Part shown: piece by piece, positions 20,919 through 34,201 of the stretch
Layout of the letters: each line of letters starts with the position of its first letter
How positions within the stretch are numbered: the stretch's first letter is position 1
DNA from: Planctomyces sp. SH-PL14
GTDB lineage: Bacteria; Planctomycetota; Planctomycetia; Planctomycetales; Planctomycetaceae
Direction: 5' to 3'
DNA length: 64,000 bases
Assembly: GCF_001610835.1 (NCBI RefSeq)
Contig: NZ_CP011270.1
Coordinates: 2,188,001 to 2,252,000, forward strand
Notes under the pieces: model-generated
What the model was told of the DNA's origin: nothing
Databases searched by the model: none
What the model saw: the letters and a program-made list of their open reading frames with translations, nothing else
Program-made: the position numbers and the translations under genes

Positions 20919-23558
20919 GTGGCAGGCAAGAAGAAAAAGGGACTGGTGATCGTCGAGTCTCCCGCGAAGGCCAAGAAGATTGGCGGCTTCCTGGGGAAGG
21001 ACTACGAAGTCCGCGCCAGCATGGGGCACATCCGCGACCTCCCCGAGAAGGCGGCCGACATCCCGGCGGAGGTCAAGAAGCAGGGATGGTCCACCCTGGG
21101 GGTGAACGTCCGTGAGAACTTCGCTCCTCTTTATATTGTCCCCAGCGGGAAGAAGGCCCTCGTCAAGGAACTGAAGGGGCTGCTCAAGGACTCCGAAGAA
21201 CTCATCCTCGCGACCGACGAAGACCGCGAAGGAGAGAGCATCGGCTGGCACCTCATGGAGCTCCTCGAGCCCAAGGTCCCGGTCAAGCGGATGGTGTTCT
21301 CCGAAATCACGAAGGACGCGATCCTCGACGCGCTCGACCACACCCGCCAGCTCGACATGAACCTGGTCCGGGCCCAGGAGACGCGGCGGATCGTCGACCG
21401 CCTCTACGGCTACACCCTGAGCCCCCTCCTCTGGAAGAAGATCCGTCCGCGGCTCTCCGCCGGCCGGGTCCAGAGCGTCGCGGTCCGGGTTCTCGTCCAG
21501 CGCGAGCTGGAGCGGCTCGCGTTCCGCAGCGGTACCTACTGGGACCTGAAGGCCGACCTGGCGACCGCCAAGAGCGAAAAGTTCGCGGCGGAGCTGACCG
21601 CCCTCGGCGGGAAGCGGATCGCCAGCGGGAAGGACTTCGACGAGCAGACCGGCCGGATCAAGGCGGGGTCGGACGTCCTGCTCCTCGACGAGAAGACGGC
21701 CAAGGACCTCCAGACCCGGCTGCAGTCGACCGGCTGGGCGGTGACCGCCATCGAGCACCGCCAGCAGGTCCGCCGCCCTCCCCCGCCCTTCACGACGAGT
21801 ACCCTCCAGCAGGAGGCGAACCGCAAGCTCGGCATGTCGGCCCGGGAGACAATGCAGACCGCCCAGCGGCTGTACGAAGACGGCCTCATCACCTACATGC
21901 GTACCGACAGCGTGACCCTCTCCCAGGAGGCGATCTCGGCGACGCGGAAGCGGATCGGCGACAGCTACGGCGACAGCTTCCTGAGTCCGCAGGTCCGGCA
22001 GTACAGCACCAAGACCAAGAACGCCCAGGAGGCCCACGAGGCGATCCGTCCCGCGGGCAAGGAGATGAAGACCGCCGACGAGCAGGGGCTCGGCGGGCGG
22101 GAGAGCTCGCTGTACGACATGATCTGGAAGCGGACGATGGCTTGCCAGATGGCCGACGCCCAGCTCCGGTTCACGACTGCGGTCATCACCGCCGGCGACG
22201 CGGAGTTCCGCGCGACCGGCCGGCAGATCGAGTTCGCCGGTTACTTCCGGGCCTACGTTGAAGGGCATGACGATCCGGAGTCCGCCCTCGAAGACCAGGA
22301 GTCGTCGCTCCCCCTGATGCAGGAGCGGGACAAGCTCGACTGCCAGAAGGTCGACGCGATCAGCCACGAGACGAAGCCCCCCGCCCGCTACACGGAGGCG
22401 ACGCTCGTCCGGAAGATGGAAGCGGAGGGGATCGGCCGCCCCAGTACGTACGCCAGCATCATCGGGACGATCCAGGACCGGGGGTACGTCCGCAAGGCGA
22501 GCAACCAGCTCATCCCGACGTTCACGGCGCTGGCGGTCAACAAGCTCCTCGAGAACCACTTCTCGAACCTGGTCGACTACCAGTTCACGGCCCAGATGGA
22601 GCAGTCGCTGGACGACATCTCAAACGGGCAGGTCGAGTTCGTCCCGTACCTCTCGAACTTCTTCCTCGGGGACGACGGTCTCGAGAACCAGGTGAAGACC
22701 CGCGAGGAGGGGATCGATCCCCGCTCCGCCTGCACCCTGGAGCTGGACGGGCTGACCTCCGCGGTCCGGGTCGGGAAGTTCGGGCCGTACCTCGAAAAGA
22801 AGGAAGGGGAAGCGACCGTCACCGCCTCGCTGCCGGACGACATCTCGCCCGCCGACCTCAACGACGAGATGGCGACGAAGCTCCTCGAAACGAAGAAGCA
22901 GGGGCCGCAGGCGCTGGGGATGCACCCGGACGAAGGGGTGCCGGTCCTGGTCCTGATCGGGCCCTTCGGTCCGTACGTGCAGCTCGGCGAAGTGACCGAC
23001 GAGAACCCCAAGCCGAAGCGGGTTTCGATTCCGCGCGGGACGGCGGTGGAGTCGGTCGACCTCGACATGGCCCTCAAGCTGCTGACCCTGCCGCGGACGC
23101 TGGGCGAGCACCCGGTCAACGGGAAGCCGGTCCTCGCCGGGATCGGGCGGTTCGGTCCGTACGTGCAGAACGAGAAGACGTACAAGTCGCTCCAGAAGAC
23201 GGACGACGTCCTGACGGTCGGTTTCGACCGGGCGCTGGAGCTCTTGAGCCAGGCCCGCGTGAAGACGGGACCGACGCCGATCCGCGAGCTCGGCAAGCAT
23301 CCCGAGGACGAGGAGCCGGTCAACGTCTATGAGGGGCGGTACGGCCAGTACGTGAAGCACGGGGATGTGAACGCGACGATCCCGAAGGACAAGACGGCGG
23401 AGTCGATCACGCTGGAAGAGGCGATCGCTCTGCTGAAGGAGCGGGAGGCATCGGGCAAGCCGTCCAAGAAGAAGAAGGTCGCGAAGAAGAAGGCGGCTCC
23501 GAAGGCGGCGAAGAAGAAGTCCCCCAAGAAGAAGCCCAAGTCCGGCGAAGCCGAATAA
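20919..23558 (+). CDS. topA: DNA topoisomerase I (type IA)
   Basis: An 879-aa enzyme that relaxes negative supercoils through a 5'-phosphotyrosine. The TOPRIM domain opens GLVIVESPAKAKKIGGFLG and includes LATDEDREGESIGWHL. The catalytic Tyr is in the YMRTDSVTLS motif, near residue 326. HEAIRPAG and EGIGRPSTYASIIGTIQDRG are also canonical. The C-terminus lacks the zinc fingers of the E. coli enzyme; instead it has four FGPY-type repeats (KFGPYLEKKEGE, GPFGPYVQLGE, GRFGPYVQNEK, GRYGQYVKHGD) and ends in a Lys/Ala/Pro tail like histone H1. The GTG at 20919 with GGAGG just upstream fits better than a GTG at 20880, which has no RBS. Confidence 0.97.
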   Translation: MAGKKKKGLVIVESPAKAKKIGGFLGKDYEVRASMGHIRDLPEKAADIPAEVKKQGWSTLGVNVRENFAPLYIVPSGKKALVKELKGLLKDSEELILATDEDREGESIGWHLMELLEPKVPVKRMVFSEITKDAILDALDHTRQLDMNLVRAQETRRIVDRLYGYTLSPLLWKKIRPRLSAGRVQSVAVRVLVQRELERLAFRSGTYWDLKADLATAKSEKFAAELTALGGKRIASGKDFDEQTGRIKAGSDVLLLDEKTAKDLQTRLQSTGWAVTAIEHRQQVRRPPPPFTTSTLQQEANRKLGMSARETMQTAQRLYEDGLITYMRTDSVTLSQEAISATRKRIGDSYGDSFLSPQVRQYSTKTKNAQEAHEAIRPAGKEMKTADEQGLGGRESSLYDMIWKRTMACQMADAQLRFTTAVITAGDAEFRATGRQIEFAGYFRAYVEGHDDPESALEDQESSLPLMQERDKLDCQKVDAISHETKPPARYTEATLVRKMEAEGIGRPSTYASIIGTIQDRGYVRKASNQLIPTFTALAVNKLLENHFSNLVDYQFTAQMEQSLDDISNGQVEFVPYLSNFFLGDDGLENQVKTREEGIDPRSACTLELDGLTSAVRVGKFGPYLEKKEGEATVTASLPDDISPADLNDEMATKLLETKKQGPQALGMHPDEGVPVLVLIGPFGPYVQLGEVTDENPKPKRVSIPRGTAVESVDLDMALKLLTLPRTLGEHPVNGKPVLAGIGRFGPYVQNEKTYKSLQKTDDVLTVGFDRALELLSQARVKTGPTPIRELGKHPEDEEPVNVYEGRYGQYVKHGDVNATIPKDKTAESITLEEAIALLKEREASGKPSKKKKVAKKKAAPKAAKKKSPKKKPKSGEAE

Positions 23559-23640: not shown

Positions 23641-23709
23641 GCGCGAGGGTGCTTGGAAATCGCGCCCGGCCGACGGGTGTCCTTCGCGCCGCCCACCACC
23701 GTTGGCCCA

Positions 23710-24040
23710 CCGGGTCCAGGGGCACCCTGGTCAGGGGGTGCAGGGGGCAGAATGCCCCTTGCCCGCCGGAGGCTGGCCGTCGGACACTGTCTGAAGGAGC
23801 ACGTGTCCAAGCGCGGACACCGTGCCGTATGCCCCCTCACCAACCCGCCGGGATTGCTAAGCCAGCCGTGTGGGGTGAAGGAGTCCTCAACGCCGGTGCC
23901 ACAAAGCGGACGCCCGTTGCGTCCCACGGTTCCTCGTGGAAGTGCCTCCGTCGGCAAGGGGGCATCGCCCCCTTGCCGACGGAGGCTGCCGTGGCACGTT
24001 GGGTCTGAGCTATGCGCGCCGCGCCGGCCAGGACGGTCTT
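23710..24040 (+). repeat. Intergenic repeat family, copy G (full length, extended perfect palindrome)
   Basis: Complete copy. Its right-arm hairpin is unusually perfect: 23944-23963 and 23967-23986 form a 20-bp stem with no mismatch around a 3-nt ATC loop, starting GCCTCCGTCGGCAAGGGGGC. In other copies the outer part of this stem is not self-complementary. Confidence 0.93.
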
Positions 24041-25482: not shown

Positions 25483-25496
25483 CGCTCGCAGTCCCA

Positions 25497-25818
25497 CTGG
25501 GTCCAGGGGCACCCTGGTCGGGGGGGGCAGGGGGGCGAAGCCTCCTTGCCCACCGGAGGCCTGGCCGTCGAGAGATGTCCGAAGGAGCCCGTGTCCAAAC
25601 GCGGACACCGTGTCGTATGCCCCCTCACCAACCCGCGCGGATTCCGAAGCCAGTGGTGAGTCCTCAACGCCGCCTCAACAAAGGGAACATCCGTTGTGTC
25701 CCACGGTTCCGCTACAAAAATGCCTCCGGCGGCAAGGGGGCGTGGCCCCCTTGACCCCAGCCTGCCGTGGCACATTGGGTTTGAGCGAGCACCGCCGTGC
25801 CGGCAAGGACGGCGTTCG
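25497..25818 (+). repeat. Intergenic repeat family, copy H (full length)
   Basis: Complete but somewhat diverged copy (CTGGGTCCAGGGGCACCC start; CAACAAAGGGAACATCCGTT at the central hairpin). The 5' end is 15 bp after the stop of the DUF1570-like gene. The 3' box ends about 25 bp before the presumed tRNA promoter. Confidence 0.92.
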
Positions 25819-28345: not shown

Positions 28346-28519
28346 CATCAACTCCGGCCCGAAAACTCAGTTCCGAATCGAAGGTACCGGACTCCGCCGA
28401 TGTGAACAAGAATACACCTGCACTTTGTACTCTCATTAGCAGTGTTGTCTGGTCGAGGCGTGTCATCGCCGGTACGACCGAACGAGTGGCTGAAGGTGCC
28501 CATTACCGGCACCGCCCGA

Positions 28520-28841
28520 CCGGGTCCAGGGGCACCCTGGTCAGGGGATGCAAGGGGGAGAATCCCCCTTGCCCGCCGGAGGCCTGGCCGTCGAGCGATA
28601 TCTGAAGGAGCACGTGTCCAAGCGCGGACACCGTGCCGGATGCCCCTCGCCAACCCGCGGGGACTACGGAGCGAGCGTGGAGTCCTCAACGCCGGCCGGT
28701 ACCACAAAGCGGACGTCCGTGGTGTACCACGGTTCCTCATGGAAGCGCCTCCGGCGGCAAGGGGGCGAGACCCCCTTGACCCCGGCTGCCGTCGCACGTT
28801 GGGGTTGAGCGATGGAGGTCGCGCCGGCGAGGACGCGGTTC
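28520..28841 (+). repeat. Intergenic repeat family, copy I (full length, type example)
   Basis: Order of blocks: CCGGGTCCAGGGGCACC; left-arm hairpin GGGGGAGAATCCCCC; TTGCCCGCCGGAGGCCTGGC; CTGAAGGAG; hairpin GTGTCCAAGCGCGGACAC; CCAACCCGCGGGG; GAGTCCTCAACGCCGG; hairpin CACAAAGCGGACGTCCGTGG; CCACGGTTCCTCATGGAAG; GCCTCCGGCGGCAAGGGGG; loop; CCCCCTTGACCCCGGCTGCC; GCACGTTGGGGTTGAGC; about 12 variable nt; GCCGGCGAGGACGCGGTTC. The left-arm block CCCCCTTGCCCGCCGGAGGC is nearly the reverse complement of the right-arm block, so the whole element can fold back. Found between two divergent genes. Confidence 0.95.
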
Positions 28842-29718: not shown

Positions 29719-30792
29719 TCAGGCCGCGGCCTTCGCGGCCGGGCTGAACAGAGCCTGAATGCCCATCGGCCCGGCAGCGGTGCCGTTCCAGGCGTGGGCT
29801 TCCATCGACTGGAGAATCCCCTCGGCGACCTCGACCGCCTTGAGAGCGTCTTCGCCATTGACCACCGGACGGCGGCCCGTCCGCACGCAGTCGAGGAAAC
29901 TGGAGAGCTCGAGCGTCAGCGCGTCCCCTTCGGTGACGGAGACCGTCTCCATCGGGAAGAACTTCGTGAACATCTCTTCTTTGAGCTGGGCGATGTTCGC
30001 ACCCTTCTGGAGCGAGAGGTCGAACGGCAGCTGGCCGGCCAGGACCGGAACACCCGGCTTGATGCGGGTCACCGAACGGGCCTGCAGGTCGGCGGTCGCC
30101 CACCCCTCCGCGGACCACGCCTGGATCGACCGCTTCGTCTGCGGGCAGAGCCGGCTCGCCGAGAGGTCGGCGATGCAGCCGTTCTCGAACCGGAGGCGGG
30201 CCTGGACGCAGTCCTCATGGCCGCCGACGAGACAGAGTCCGAACGCCTCGATCCCCGCGACGGGGGAAGCCGCCAGGTGGAGCACCAGCTCGATGTCGTG
30301 AATCAGGAGATCGTGCACCGCGCCGATGTCGGTCGACCGGAACGGATAGGGGCTGTGCCGCTCGGTGCGGATATAGCGAGGAGAGCCGACGCTGTTCGCC
30401 AGCTCGACGAAGGCCGGATTGAACCGTTCGATGTGCCCGACCTGGAGCGGGATCTTCTTTTCGTTGGCCAGCCGGACGAGCGCGCGGGCTTCGACCGCCG
30501 TCTTCGCCAGGGGCTTTTCGATCAGGACCGGGACGCCGCGCTGGAGAAACTCCTCGGCGACCTTCTGGTGGAGGAACGTCGGGACGACGATCGATGCGGC
30601 GTCGACCTGGCCGGCCAACGTACGGAAGTCCGGAGTCCATTCGCACCGGCAGGCATCGGCAACCGCCTGTCCCTGGGTCGGATTCGGGTCCGCCACGGCG
30701 ACGAGTTCGACACCCGGCATCGTCGAAAGAATCCGGGCGTGATGCCGTCCGAGAGCTCCGACACCCACCACCGCCACGCGCAGCCGATCCAT
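29719..30792 (-). CDS. Gfo/Idh/MocA-family oxidoreductase, GnnA-like
   Basis: A 357-aa NAD(P)-dependent dehydrogenase. It starts MDRLRVAVVGVGALGRHHAR (Rossmann fold), with LIEKPLAKT (the family EKP) near residue 95 and VGHIERFNPAFVEL, a motif typical of UDP-GlcNAc 3-dehydrogenases; HDLLIHDIELVLHL holds the catalytic His region. The start at 30792 has GAGGAACAGGTC upstream. It lies 201 bp downstream of lpxA on the same strand, separated by a terminator-like hairpin. In Acidithiobacillus and Leptospira, the oxidoreductase GnnA next to lpxA makes the 3-keto intermediate for UDP-GlcNAc3N and amide-linked lipid A. The same role is plausible here but no GnnB aminotransferase is in the window. Confidence 0.85.
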   Translation of the reverse strand: MDRLRVAVVGVGALGRHHARILSTMPGVELVAVADPNPTQGQAVADACRCEWTPDFRTLAGQVDAASIVVPTFLHQKVAEEFLQRGVPVLIEKPLAKTAVEARALVRLANEKKIPLQVGHIERFNPAFVELANSVGSPRYIRTERHSPYPFRSTDIGAVHDLLIHDIELVLHLAASPVAGIEAFGLCLVGGHEDCVQARLRFENGCIADLSASRLCPQTKRSIQAWSAEGWATADLQARSVTRIKPGVPVLAGQLPFDLSLQKGANIAQLKEEMFTKFFPMETVSVTEGDALTLELSSFLDCVRTGRRPVVNGEDALKAVEVAEGILQSMEAHAWNGTAAGPMGIQALFSPAAKAAA

Positions 30793-30924
30793 GACCTGTT
30801 CCTCGAGAATCCGCTCCGGTCCATCGGAGTGGGAGGAAATGTCGCGTGGCAGGCGCATACGGAGCAAGAGCAGTTTTCGCGCGGTGAATCCGGCCCCCCC
30901 CTTCTCCCCGCCAGGAGACGGCCC

Positions 30925-30960
30925 GGAAAACGAGAAAGGCGGCCGTTCACGGCCGCCTTT
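30925..30960 (-). terminator. Terminator-like hairpin after lpxA
   Basis: Perfect 11-bp stem AAAGGCGGCCG (30935-30945) / CGGCCGCCTTT (30950-30960), loop TTCA; the minus strand continues CTCGTTTTCC. It lies 33 bp past the lpxA stop and before the Gfo/Idh gene. The T-tract is short, so termination may be partial. Confidence 0.7.
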
Positions 30961-30993
30961 CCGAAGTCCTTTGTCGCCGCATTGAGCAGGCCG

Positions 30994-31851
30994 TTACGCC
31001 GCTTCCCGCTCTTCTTTCGGAGCGGCGGGAGCCATCCGGACCGCCTCGCGGCCGCGGCCCATCTTCCCCTTCCGCTGGGTCTCGATGAAGCTCAGCAGGT
31101 TCGCCAGCTCGATCGGGAAGACGCCGTCGCACTCCTCGGCCAAGAGCGCCCGGGCCTCGTCGATCTGCTTGTGCTCGCGGAAGAAGAGCCGATGGGCCCG
31201 CTTGATGATCCCGATCGTCTCCCGGCTGATGCCGGACCGCTGCATCCCGACGATGTTGATCGTCTTGATTTCGGGATTGTCGCTCCCGGCGGCGAGCATG
31301 AACGGCGGGATGTCGTGCGGCACGCGGCAGCCGCCGCTCACAAAGGCCAGGGTGCCGATCGTCGAGAAGTGGTGGACGACGGTGTTCCCCGAGACGATCG
31401 CCCGGTCCTGGACGTGGACGTGCCCGCCGAGCAGGACGCCGTTCACCAGGATCGTGTCGTTGAAGATGTGGCAGTTGTGGGCGATGTGGGCGTTCGACAT
31501 CACCAGGTTGCGGTGCCCAACTCGTGTGACGCCGTCTTCCTTGTCCGCCCCGCGGTTGATCGTCACACCCTCGCGGAACTGGTTGTCGTCGCCGATTTCG
31601 ACCCGCGTCGTCGAGTTGTGGTAGGTCTTGTCCTGCGGCTCGCCGCCGATGACCGTGTTCGGCCAGAAGTGGTTCCGCTGACCGATCGTCGTGTGGCCGC
31701 AGAGCACGACGTGCGAATCGAGACGGCAGCCATCGCCGATCGTGACGTCGGGGCCGACGAGACAGAAGGGGCCAATGTAGACATCGCGGCCAACGCGGGC
31801 GCGAGGATCAAGGTGAGCGAGCGGTGATACGTAGGTTGCCATTGGAGACAT
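30994..31851 (-). CDS. lpxA: Acyl-ACP--UDP-N-acetylglucosamine O-acyltransferase LpxA
   Basis: A 285-aa left-handed beta-helix enzyme for the first step of lipid A synthesis (or an N-acyl transfer if the substrate is UDP-GlcNAc3N). Hexapeptide repeats run through residues ~10-195 (VGRDVYIGPFCLVGPDVTIG, TVIGGEPQDKTY). The active-site segment SNAHIAHNCHIFNDTILVNG holds the catalytic His equivalent to E. coli His125. The acyl-chain ruler Gly (E. coli Gly173) appears kept in FVSGGCRVPHDIPPF; VVHHF replaces AVHQF. The C-terminal helical domain is normal. The start at 31851 has AAGGA upstream; 31842 is the alternative. Follows lpxC by 179 bp. Confidence 0.95.
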   Translation of the reverse strand: MSPMATYVSPLAHLDPRARVGRDVYIGPFCLVGPDVTIGDGCRLDSHVVLCGHTTIGQRNHFWPNTVIGGEPQDKTYHNSTTRVEIGDDNQFREGVTINRGADKEDGVTRVGHRNLVMSNAHIAHNCHIFNDTILVNGVLLGGHVHVQDRAIVSGNTVVHHFSTIGTLAFVSGGCRVPHDIPPFMLAAGSDNPEIKTINIVGMQRSGISRETIGIIKRAHRLFFREHKQIDEARALLAEECDGVFPIELANLLSFIETQRKGKMGRGREAVRMAPAAPKEEREAA

Positions 31852-32030
31852 CCCATCCTTCACACGGACCGATGCGCTGAACTCAGTCCGACAGCCTCCA
31901 TCGGCGGCGGGCGGCGCGACCCGGGTCCGTCGAATCTATTCGTCCACTCCTGACTGTTTCTTGCGAACAACCGTTCAATTTTGCCAATTCCGACTCTCCG
32001 GACCATCCGGAACCTTCGGAACGCCGCCGA

Positions 32031-32921
32031 TCAGGCCGCCGCAGTGGCAGAATCGGCCGCACCCCGGAGGAGCTGCCTGACGACTTCGTGATTCGCGTGG
32101 TGTCCCGAGCGGTCGGCCCGGAAGTCCCCGGAGAGCCCCGAACCGATCAGCGCGAAGTCGCCGATGCAGTCGAGGACCTTATGCCGCGCGCACTCGTCGG
32201 GAGCCCGCAGGCGGTTGTCGATCACGCCGCCGGGGCCAAAGACCAGCAGGCTTTGCGGCGTCGCCCGCAGACCGATCCCTTGCGCCTGGAGAAACTTTAC
32301 CTCCTCTTCCAGGATAAATGTTCGCGCAAAGGCGACCTGTTCGATGAAGGATTCCGGCGTCAGGACGACGTCGAACGACTGCGGGGGAATGGCACACGCC
32401 CCGTAGTCGAGCGAGTAGCTGACCCGATAGGACCCATCCCGCGTCGGAGCGACGGAGATCCGGCTTCCGGACCGCTCCTCGACCACGACCGACTGCTGCA
32501 CGGCGTGGATCGACCGCGGCGCGGACTGGGACTCAAAGCCGGCTTCCCAGAGGGCGTCCGCCAGGAAGAGGGCGGAGCCGTCCCCGCCCGGGGGTTCCGG
32601 GGCGTCGAGCTGCACGAGGCAGTTGTCGACCTGCAGGCCCGCCAGGGCCGCCATGACGTGTTCGATCATCTGGACGCTCGCCCCGCCGGAGGCGATGGCC
32701 GTCCGCCGCGGCATTTTGACCAGGGAGGCGATCGTCGCCGGAATGCGGACCGGCGCAGCGAGGTCGACACGCTCGAAGACGATGCCGTGGTTCTCGTCCG
32801 CCGGAAGGAACCGGAGGGTGACGTCGGCGCCGCCGAAGAGTCCATGACCGTGGACCACCGCGGGGCGGCGGAGCGTGCGCTGTGAGCGGAAGGAGTGAGG
32901 GACCACGAGGAGGGATTCCAT
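32031..32921 (-). CDS. lpxC: UDP-3-O-acyl-N-acetylglucosamine deacetylase LpxC
   Basis: A 296-aa zinc amidase, the committed step of lipid A synthesis. It opens FRSQRTLRRPAVVHGHGLFG, and zinc and catalytic motifs are present: IEHVMAALAGLQVDNCLVQL (His ligand, near residue 86), AFARTFILEEEVKFLQAQGI, HKVLDCIGDFALIG (His and Asp ligands, near 249) and GHHANHEVVRQL (catalytic His). Unlike some planctomycete and Bacteroidetes forms it is not fused to FabZ. The start at 32921 is the ATG before MESLLVVPHS with GGAGG upstream; the open frame extends further but is unconserved. Lies between an OmpH/Skp-like gene and lpxA on the same strand. Confidence 0.95.
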   Translation of the reverse strand: MESLLVVPHSFRSQRTLRRPAVVHGHGLFGGADVTLRFLPADENHGIVFERVDLAAPVRIPATIASLVKMPRRTAIASGGASVQMIEHVMAALAGLQVDNCLVQLDAPEPPGGDGSALFLADALWEAGFESQSAPRSIHAVQQSVVVEERSGSRISVAPTRDGSYRVSYSLDYGACAIPPQSFDVVLTPESFIEQVAFARTFILEEEVKFLQAQGIGLRATPQSLLVFGPGGVIDNRLRAPDECARHKVLDCIGDFALIGSGLSGDFRADRSGHHANHEVVRQLLRGAADSATAAA

Positions 32922-32999
32922 TCCGTTGCGAGTCGACCGCGGAGGGTCCCGGAGGAGGGAGACCGGCCTGCGGCGACTGCGGCCTATGACATGCAACGA

Positions 33000-33029
33000 A
33001 CACGGATGATCGTCGGCGATCACCCGTGT
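33000..33029 (-). terminator. Hairpin between ompH-like gene and lpxC
   Basis: ACACGGATGATCG (33000-33012) pairs with CGATCACCCGTGT (33017-33029) at 12 of 13 positions, loop TCGG. It lies 118 bp past the stop of the OmpH-like gene and 79 bp before the lpxC start. No T-run follows, so it may be a leader hairpin or processing site rather than a terminator. Confidence 0.4.
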
Positions 33030-33146
33030 CCGGAGACGATCAGTGGAGTCAGGCCCGTTGGGGCGAGGCCCGGGCGGAGCCGGGGACTCGTCGCCCTGAA
33101 CGGAGAACGCGGCTGGCCGCGTCCTCCGCCAGAGCTTGTTCACGGA

Positions 33147-33830
33147 CTAGCGGGGAGCGCCAGCCGGGGCGGAGGCGGACCGGGCCGGGGCGGCCGCGGG
33201 GGTGGCGACGCCGCCGTTCTTCTTGAACTCGTCGTTGAGGTAGCTGAGGATCGGCTCCGTGACGTCGTCCTGCTTCTTGTAGTAGACGACCTGGCGGCCG
33301 AGGTTGTTGAGGATCTGCTGGGGATTCTCAGCTTCGGCGACTTCCTGGCGGTTGAACCGCAGGATCAGGGTGTACTTGTAGTAGTTGGCGTAGTCGTTGA
33401 CCGCCTGCTGGACTTCCAGATAGATGGTCTTGTAGATGTCGGCTTCCTTGCGGAGGAAGTCGCGCTGCGAGACCTTGCGGTAGGTTTCGAGGTCGGTCTG
33501 CATCTTGAGGAGCTGACTCTCGATGCGGACGTAGTCCGGGCTCCCTTCCTGGAGGTCGCCGCTGGTGATCTTGGCCTGGAGACTCTTCATCTCCTCGATC
33601 ATCGCGTCGGCCTTCTTCTGGGCTCCCTGGGCTTCTTCCTGGAGGGACTTGGTCATCGTCTTGAACTTGTCGTAGTTCTTGAAGACGTGGGCCATGTCGA
33701 TGAGGCCGACCTGGTGCTGGACCGCGCTCTTGGCAGCGGCCGCCGGCTGTTGAGCCGAGGCCGGCGCCAGCGACAGGGCGACGCTGGCACAGAGGGCGGC
33801 AGCGGAAACGGACATCAAGAGCTTCTTCAC
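33147..33830 (-). CDS. OmpH/Skp-family periplasmic chaperone
   Basis: 227 aa from a GTG with AAGGAG upstream. Signal peptide VKKLLMSVSAAALCASVALSLAPASA, then a short Ala/Gln stretch and the OmpH core: QVGLIDMAHVFKNYDKFKTM, a long coiled coil (residues ~60-150, SLQEEAQGAQKKADAMIEEM and LLKMQTDLETYRKVSQRDFL) and the returning strand YYKYTLILRFNRQ. Trimeric holdase for outer-membrane proteins in the periplasm. The Ala/Pro tail (ATPAAAPARSASAPAG) is extra. Its place upstream of lpxC-lpxA matches the usual skp-lpxD-fabZ-lpxA neighbourhood of diderm bacteria, although lpxD and bamA are not here. Confidence 0.9.
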   Translation of the reverse strand: MKKLLMSVSAAALCASVALSLAPASAQQPAAAAKSAVQHQVGLIDMAHVFKNYDKFKTMTKSLQEEAQGAQKKADAMIEEMKSLQAKITSGDLQEGSPDYVRIESQLLKMQTDLETYRKVSQRDFLRKEADIYKTIYLEVQQAVNDYANYYKYTLILRFNRQEVAEAENPQQILNNLGRQVVYYKKQDDVTEPILSYLNDEFKKNGGVATPAAAPARSASAPAGAPR

Positions 33831-34201
33831 GGCGTTTGCACTCCTTTGCGGTGCCGATTTGTCCCGCCGCGAATGGGCTGGGGAACGGGGGACGGTATTC
33901 ACCGAACAGTGTTTTGAGCGAGTTGTCGTCGCATTGGTGCTCGCCAATCCTGGGCGAGTGGGTCGGAATGTCTCACAAATTCGCGAGATGGGTCAATACG
34001 ACTGTTTTGGGGAATTGTTTTGGCCGAGGGGGGTGCGGGTGATGATCAGGATGCACTGCAACGGACTGCCCGTTAATCACTTACGGGAAATTGCCCAGTG
34101 GGTAGGAGTCCGTTTTGACCGCATGTTGGGGCCCTTCCCAGCGGCGGAAGCTGCCGATGGGCCCCATCGGGTGGCCCTTGCGGCGGTACTCTCGAAAGCT
34201 C
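33831..34201. other. Upstream region of the OmpH-like gene
   Basis: Leader and presumed promoter region of the minus-strand ompH-like gene. It is less GC-rich (33940-34030). TTGACC (minus strand, 33991-33996) is a possible -35 but the -10 is weak. A 7-bp inverted repeat GGGGCCC (34128-34134) / GGGCCCC (34159-34165) lies near repeat copy J. No gene. Confidence 0.45.

Follow-up and report, generated by a model that had tools for sequence, protein, structure and literature searches.

Does a dehydrogenase gene lying directly after lpxA in a planctomycete point to a lipid A whose acyl chains are amide-linked? The question is raised by a stretch of 64,000 nucleotides from Planctomyces sp. SH-PL14, called the window here, which corresponds to positions 2188001-2252000 of an 8.44 Mb genome held in one contig. 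In Acidithiobacillus and Leptospira, gnnA and gnnB presumably stand beside lpxA. In the window, gene order predicts amide-linked lipid A, and the phylum is one whose cell envelope has been debated for a long time. If the prediction is true, the outer membrane would gain stability towards alkali and esterases from its amide bonds. The GnnA-GnnB pathway to UDP-GlcNAc3N is described for Acidithiobacillus ferrooxidans in passages of three papers (PMC8036547, PMC5644692, PMC3342949), and the GnnA/GnnB papers that we found concern, judging by their titles, other bacteria. No structure of a planctomycete lipid A was found in the excerpts of literature searched, and PMC3422733 lists among its references a study from 1988 on the long-chain hydroxy fatty acids of planctomycete lipid A. 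In the cultured relative Planctopirus limnophila, a transposon study (PMC10632474) reports nearly every lipid A gene to be essential. A term search of the accessible portions of PMC3422733 and PMC3087551 gave no mention of GnnA, and no text pairing "GlcN3N" with "planctomycet" was found in a literature from which subscription journals were mostly absent.

The features of the window considered here are the following:

29719-30792, minus strand: gnnA-like Gfo/Idh gene, probably encoding a UDP-GlcNAc 3-dehydrogenase (Pfam GFO_IDH_MocA, NF040723 below its cut-off, and tree)

30933-30962, minus strand: 13-pair hairpin in the lpxA-gnnA gap (folding, shuffles and relatives)

30994-31851, minus strand: lpxA, copy 1 of 2 in the genome, coding for a UDP-GlcNAc / UDP-GlcNAc3N 3-acyltransferase (TIGR01852)

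32031-33143, minus strand: lpxC, longest open reading frame with an approximate start, named from sequence reading

33147-33947, minus strand: Skp/OmpH-like periplasmic chaperone gene, upstream in the cluster, longest open reading frame, named from sequence reading

On the minus strand, the gene order is thus Skp-like, lpxC, lpxA and dehydrogenase. The lpxA reading frame extends over 30994-31863, with an ATG start at 31851. Its product scores 299 bits against NCBIfam PRK05289 (cut-off 226) and 270.9 bits against TIGR01852 (cut-off 231), and it retains all the sites of the E. coli enzyme, Q73, D74, H122, H125, H144, N198 and R204. Both the curated family cut-off and the catalytic residues therefore identify it as an LpxA. 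The reading frame of the next gene, 29719-30867, starts with TTG. Because the homologous part begins at the ATG at 30792, just preceded by GAGGAA, we take the gene as 29719-30792, with a product of 357 amino acids. The initial annotation had placed a Gfo/Idh gene with a VGHIERFNP motif after lpxA, and this holds. The protein carries QVGHIERFNP and matches three Gfo/Idh Pfam models, with 95 bits for GFO_IDH_MocA (cut-off 24). In an alignment with 12 relatives, its EKP and HD residues are invariant, as expected of a Gfo/Idh/MocA protein of the GnnA type, whereas VGHIERFNP varies (VGHSERCNP, VGYSERFNP, VGHLERFNA).

Among family models, NF040723 (UDP-GlcNAc 3-dehydrogenase) is the best NCBIfam match, at E 1.1e-58, and GnnA does not appear in the name of any of the nine models listed for the protein. 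The closest solved relative is PDB 7bvj. The window protein thus resembles the archaeal UDP-GlcNAc 3-dehydrogenase in its top family model and its solved relative. It differs from it in gene context and in its score of 199 bits, far under the cut-off of 450 set for this archaeal equivalog.

The adjacency to lpxA is conserved in the phylum. A GnnA homologue was found in 117 of the 149 genomes of the phylum by a search (E up to 1e-30) that scored at most 13 candidates per genome. The place of lpxA is listed for all but 14 of the 117. In the 103 that remain, lpxA lies within 2.5 kb of gnnA in 69, at 3.3-4.0 kb in four more, and further off or on another contig in 30. The linkage to lpxA or lpxB that goes with GnnA is therefore seen in the window as well as in these 69 genomes. 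Both genes are present in 55 of 70 fetched loci (53 genomes, G088 and G133 being counted twice). With gene starts guessed by a script, the gap from lpxA to gnnA has a median of 28 nt in these 55 loci; it is 50 nt or less in 30, and the genes overlap in 17. Genes for lpxC homologues also lie beside LpxA or GnnA genes in other genomes. One Planctomycetota bacterium (L169) shares the whole order Skp-LpxC-LpxA-GnnA, with identities of 43%, 49%, 59% and 53%, respectively. From these sequence comparisons, what seems new is the likely presence across the phylum of a conserved lpxA-gnnA pair for a biochemistry already described in other bacteria. In another planctomycete (G057; L092, 4802-6530), two tandem lpxA genes directly precede gnnA, another possible gene set for a hybrid lipid A.

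With a median gap of 28 nt in the phylum, the gap of 201 nt in the window, with its strong hairpin, is unusual. The hairpin, noted in the initial annotation, is real: it has a stem of 13 pairs, the folded gap gives z = -2.8, and its core occurs once in the window and in none of 100 shuffles. A terminator scan of the window gives it no score. A comparable stem is absent from all six family relatives, three of which have a stem of at most 8 pairs with no T run and three none. The hairpin is hence a local feature, and a role as a conserved regulator is rejected from the comparison with these six relatives.

Similar dehydrogenases cluster with lpx genes outside the phylum, as had been stated for Acidithiobacillus and Leptospira. 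A scan of GTDB genomes with alignment A1 gave a sample of at least 80 loci in 17 named phyla. Among the 80 loci listed, the fetched stretch holds an lpxA or lpxB match in 36, and a DegT aminotransferase gene adjoins the dehydrogenase gene in 15 (12 of 24 in Pseudomonadota, 2 of 4 in Thermodesulfobacteriota and 1 in Atribacterota). Ten of these 15 read gnnA-degT-lpxB on a single strand. Among the loci listed, Gammaproteobacteria other than Acidithiobacillus, and also Geobacter, have a DegT gene and then lpxB after gnnA, and none of the 29 Bacteroidota loci listed has an lpx or DegT match nearby.

A tree of the dehydrogenases places 52 GnnA-type sequences, the window protein included, on one side (SH-aLRT 100) of six sequences of another Gfo/Idh type; its loci were picked by hand and it is rooted on the other type, so that the split itself is the test. 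Like all the trees used here, it is a quick one with SH-aLRT support only. The window protein groups with its own family, and its side of the tree includes Legionella, Flavobacterium and proteins of gnnA-degT-lpxB operons. Flavobacteriaceae include Capnocytophaga canimorsus, which itself is outside the scan loci. Because of this split, the window gene is filed with the lpx-linked GnnA group, which includes those of GlcN3N makers.

Does the genome also encode a GnnB? The DegT family matches 12 places in the genome, of which five reach at least 194 bits, and none of the 12 falls inside the window, in line with the earlier remark that gnnB is not seen there. The best candidate lies elsewhere:

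Genome 2742314-2743525: P0003, DegT aminotransferase, candidate GnnB (PF01041, 400 bits)

The gene is unlinked to gnnA, and no lipid A genes were recognised by eye near it. Lysine K200 of P0003, which we take to be the PLP lysine, is invariant in alignment A2. For all 15 gnnA-adjacent DegT proteins of the loci listed, P0003 is the top match of the four DegT proteins of the genome that were tried. It is also the best of six for the 13 operon DegTs that could be extracted (L110 and L118, with 3-4 letters each, are in the HMM file and outside these 13 comparisons). An HMM of the operon DegTs gives 451 bits for P0003 vs. 400 for the runner-up of the genome. Identities to the operon partners are 42-47% for 12 of the 13 and 38% for L129. 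As for the other DegT proteins, P0005 and P0006 were set aside as GnnB since they pass the curated cut-offs of the WecE/RffA and LegC aminotransferases. The runner-up P0004 was also rejected, being long-branched and unstable in trees; its gene adjoins reading frames that, read by eye, resemble an NDP-sugar epimerase and a methyltransferase. A genome without any GnnB homologue had been named in the initial annotation as the finding that would speak against amide linkage, and this is not the situation here, P0003 being present. The expected GnnB-type aminotransferase has a candidate that is the best match of the genome, even if it stands outside the main clade of operon GnnBs (see below).

Together, these observations suggest a pathway. 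The window dehydrogenase, using NAD, would oxidise the 3-hydroxyl of UDP-GlcNAc. An unlinked DegT enzyme, most likely P0003, would then transaminate the 3-keto sugar to give UDP-GlcNAc3N, and the adjacent LpxA would attach a 3-hydroxyacyl chain to the 3-amine. UDP-GlcNAc3N would supply at least the window LpxA, so that acyl chains would be joined by amide bonds at the 3-position of one or both sugars. We consider it fairly probable that the window gene is a GnnA-type dehydrogenase and that lipid A is amide-linked at one or both 3-positions. The amide-linked reading proposed for the locus has gained from the protein family, the adjacency, its conservation, the clustering with lpx genes and the DegT candidate; the position of P0003 outside the operon GnnB clade weakens it.

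The system has likenesses to three described elsewhere. As in A. ferrooxidans, going by the published description, a Gfo/Idh gene is tied to lpx genes and a candidate DegT 3-aminotransferase is present in the genome. In contrast with A. ferrooxidans, this candidate is unlinked and belongs to a different clade from the operon GnnBs. Lipid A of Legionella pneumophila contains GlcN3N with amide-linked hydroxy fatty acids, according to passages of PMC10572746 and PMC7956469. In the Legionella loci listed, gnnA lies beside lpxB with no adjacent DegT gene; two of the three genomes have one strong DegT match and the third has two, and these group with WbpE. The window is like Legionella in that its gnnA belongs to an lpx cluster and has no DegT gene beside it. 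It differs in that gnnA adjoins lpxA here and lpxB there, and in that the chemistry is known for Legionella where we have genes alone. The third system, C. canimorsus, bears on whether one or both sugars are amide-linked. A passage of PMC3342949 gives this bacterium two copies of lpxA besides gnnA and gnnB, and describes its backbone as a GlcN3N-GlcN hybrid. The genome of the window likewise combines gnnA with a candidate aminotransferase gene distant from lpxA, and it has two lpxA genes. The second is:

Genome 6481031-6481783: second LpxA (275.4 bits, over the LpxA cut-off in the family search)

The genome-wide family search finds these two LpxAs over the cut-off and one LpxB. The two lpxA genes are about 4.3 Mb apart, whereas lpxA and lpxA' of C. 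canimorsus are clustered, and the backbone structure is known in C. canimorsus while the genes alone are at hand here. The second LpxA apparently represents a new observation, from sequence data. Since the hybrid backbone of C. canimorsus is explained by a pair of LpxAs together with gnnA and gnnB, a hybrid or mixed lipid A could also occur here. The window LpxA would use UDP-GlcNAc3N and the second LpxA UDP-GlcNAc, giving one amide-linked and one ester-linked sugar. Such a molecule is a form of the amide-linkage explanation and not its opposite: with a second, diverged LpxA in the genome, either one or both sugars may carry the amide.

The LpxA sequences allow this form of lipid A but also weigh on it. 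Besides both exceeding the family cut-off, the two proteins belong to separate clades of the LpxA tree, the window copy to one of 55 sequences (SH-aLRT 99) and the second copy to one of 14 (SH-aLRT 97). In the former, 46 sequences belong to GnnA-positive loci and one more to L169, next to six of GnnA-negative genomes and two second copies; the latter consists of second copies exclusively. The second LpxA retains Q73, D74, H122, H125, N198 and R204 and has tyrosine in place of H144 (a change seen in 3 of the 14 of its clade), and may do something else. No lipid A gene was recognised in its neighbourhood, either by eye or with seven queries. Of the seven genomes of the family, just two were counted with a second match (that of G087 by count only), so this copy looks accessory. 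We regard the hybrid form as possible, though less likely than not.

The substrate of the window LpxA may not be legible from its sequence. None of 237 LpxA columns separates 56 LpxAs of GnnA-positive loci from 20 of GnnA-negative loci. Columns 99, 161 and 164 differ between the clades and are not common to the GnnA-linked LpxAs of other phyla. Selectivity of the Leptospira enzyme is reportedly due to a backbone carbonyl, so that selectivity of this type would not show in the LpxA sequence.

A further reading, which we judge unlikely, is that P0003 is not a GnnB: it would make a 3-amino sugar for a surface polysaccharide, like WbpE, and the GnnA-like enzyme would work with another aminotransferase or on another sugar. 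The solved relatives of P0003 are in keeping with this reading: 7b0d, named an inositol transaminase, comes first and is followed by the sugar aminotransferases QdtB and WbpE, which act at C3. Trees of the DegT proteins leave room for it too. The operon GnnBs mostly form one clade (SH-aLRT 99), with L108, L129 and L176 outside it. P0003 belongs to a separate clade of 47 sequences (SH-aLRT 96) with many planctomycete DegTs. Gene-adjacent partners of gnnA join the P0003 clade rarely: L176 in the first tree, none in the second (built without L225, L222, L048, L054 and two DegTs of the genome), and one in a later tree that includes the DegTs of G002, G034 and G095 and leaves out four sequences. 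On the other side, the P0003 clade also contains one DegT each from genomes of Aminicenantes, Eisenbacteria, Cloacimonadota, Ignavibacteria, Desulfobacterales and Verrucomicrobia that were found in the GnnA scan. In genomes of WOR-3 and Omnitrophota with an lpx-linked gnnA, the sole strong DegT is in neither clade and lies near QdtB, which slightly lowers our confidence in the GnnA reading.

The distribution of P0003-like proteins was compared with that of GnnA. Homologues at E 1e-60 are found in 134 of the 149 genomes. A P0003-like DegT is present in 112 of the 117 genomes with GnnA and in 22 of the 32 scored negative for it (Fisher p 8e-5, kinship ignored), with a DegT threshold that admits WbpE types. 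A profile re-search found GnnA matches in 16 of the 32 "negatives", several of them generic-looking; in G143 the match is a fragment that lies next to lpxA, which makes it a missed GnnA. Because kinship is ignored, the GnnA search was limited, negatives were matched again and WbpE types are admitted, this co-occurrence is not proof. The trees include 20 DegTs of genomes that were initially scored as GnnA-negative, and 14 of these are in the P0003 clade, a count that includes L225 and L222, duplicates of L056 and L061 (L056 of G145 and L061 of G114 are labelled GnnA-positive in the DegT trees, their genomes being scored GnnA-negative). Eight of those 14 genomes were also without a match in the re-search. 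As P0003-clade DegTs persist in these eight genomes, the clade has another use too.

Also in favour of the surface-sugar reading, a different Gfo/Idh gene lies close to the DegT gene in nine of the 50 DegT loci of planctomycetes (eight genomes out of 48), those of L048-L077 having flanks of 1.5 kb only. In L058 and L061/L222, this Gfo/Idh is fused, as read by eye, to a WbpD-like hexapeptide acetyltransferase beside the DegT, which makes a compact gene set suited to a 3-acetamido sugar. A profile of this other Gfo/Idh type was tried on 22 genomes and gives strong matches, at E 1e-130 or better, in five. In the remaining 17, at 1e-40, it finds only GnnA itself in nine, the genome of the window included, and nothing in eight; the six family relatives all belong to this group of 17. 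Since the other type was not found here, GnnA is the sole dehydrogenase of these two types found in this genome that could feed P0003, which argues against the surface-sugar reading and for P0003 as the partner of GnnA. The unlinked DegT clade is, as far as comparison of the proteins can tell, an apparently new candidate GnnB.

GnnA homologues without a close GnnB-like DegT occur in near-complete genomes (L087, 5957-7102; G002, G034 and G095). The DegTs of G002, G034 and G095 are only 28-35% identical to P0003 and lie outside both clades, and G034 is the one of the three whose GnnA was placed in the dehydrogenase tree. It is quite unlikely that the window GnnA is a relic, or has moved to a different reaction, in a cell with ordinary ester-linked GlcN: these three genomes and an LpxA active site that appears ordinary would agree with this, but the gene is open and conserved, its EKP and HD residues are invariant, and it is kept beside lpxA in many genomes of the phylum.

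Under the preferred reading of an amide-linked lipid A, the distribution of the genes can be given a history, which we offer tentatively and which may well prove wrong. Amide linkage would be the old state of Planctomycetota, based on an lpxA-gnnA core and an unlinked aminotransferase from a clade that has so far not been named GnnB, to which some lineages, this one among them, would have added an ancient second LpxA, giving a hybrid amide/ester lipid A. Because the same dehydrogenase is found in lpx clusters of several other phyla, the comparison points to a wider occurrence of amide-linked lipid A than the species studied chemically would indicate.

Finally, two sets of repeats were observed elsewhere in the window. 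Three copies of a repeat of about 270-290 bases, at 23705-23991, 25493-25761 and 28516-28794, have blocks that are 65-93% alike. At least two of the copies are intergenic, with a G+C-rich palindrome-like stretch, and the repeat may be an interspersed element. At 22904-23357, three direct repeats of 79 bases, 62-80% alike, are spaced by 186 and 189, both multiples of three, and perhaps correspond to repeated domains of a protein gene.
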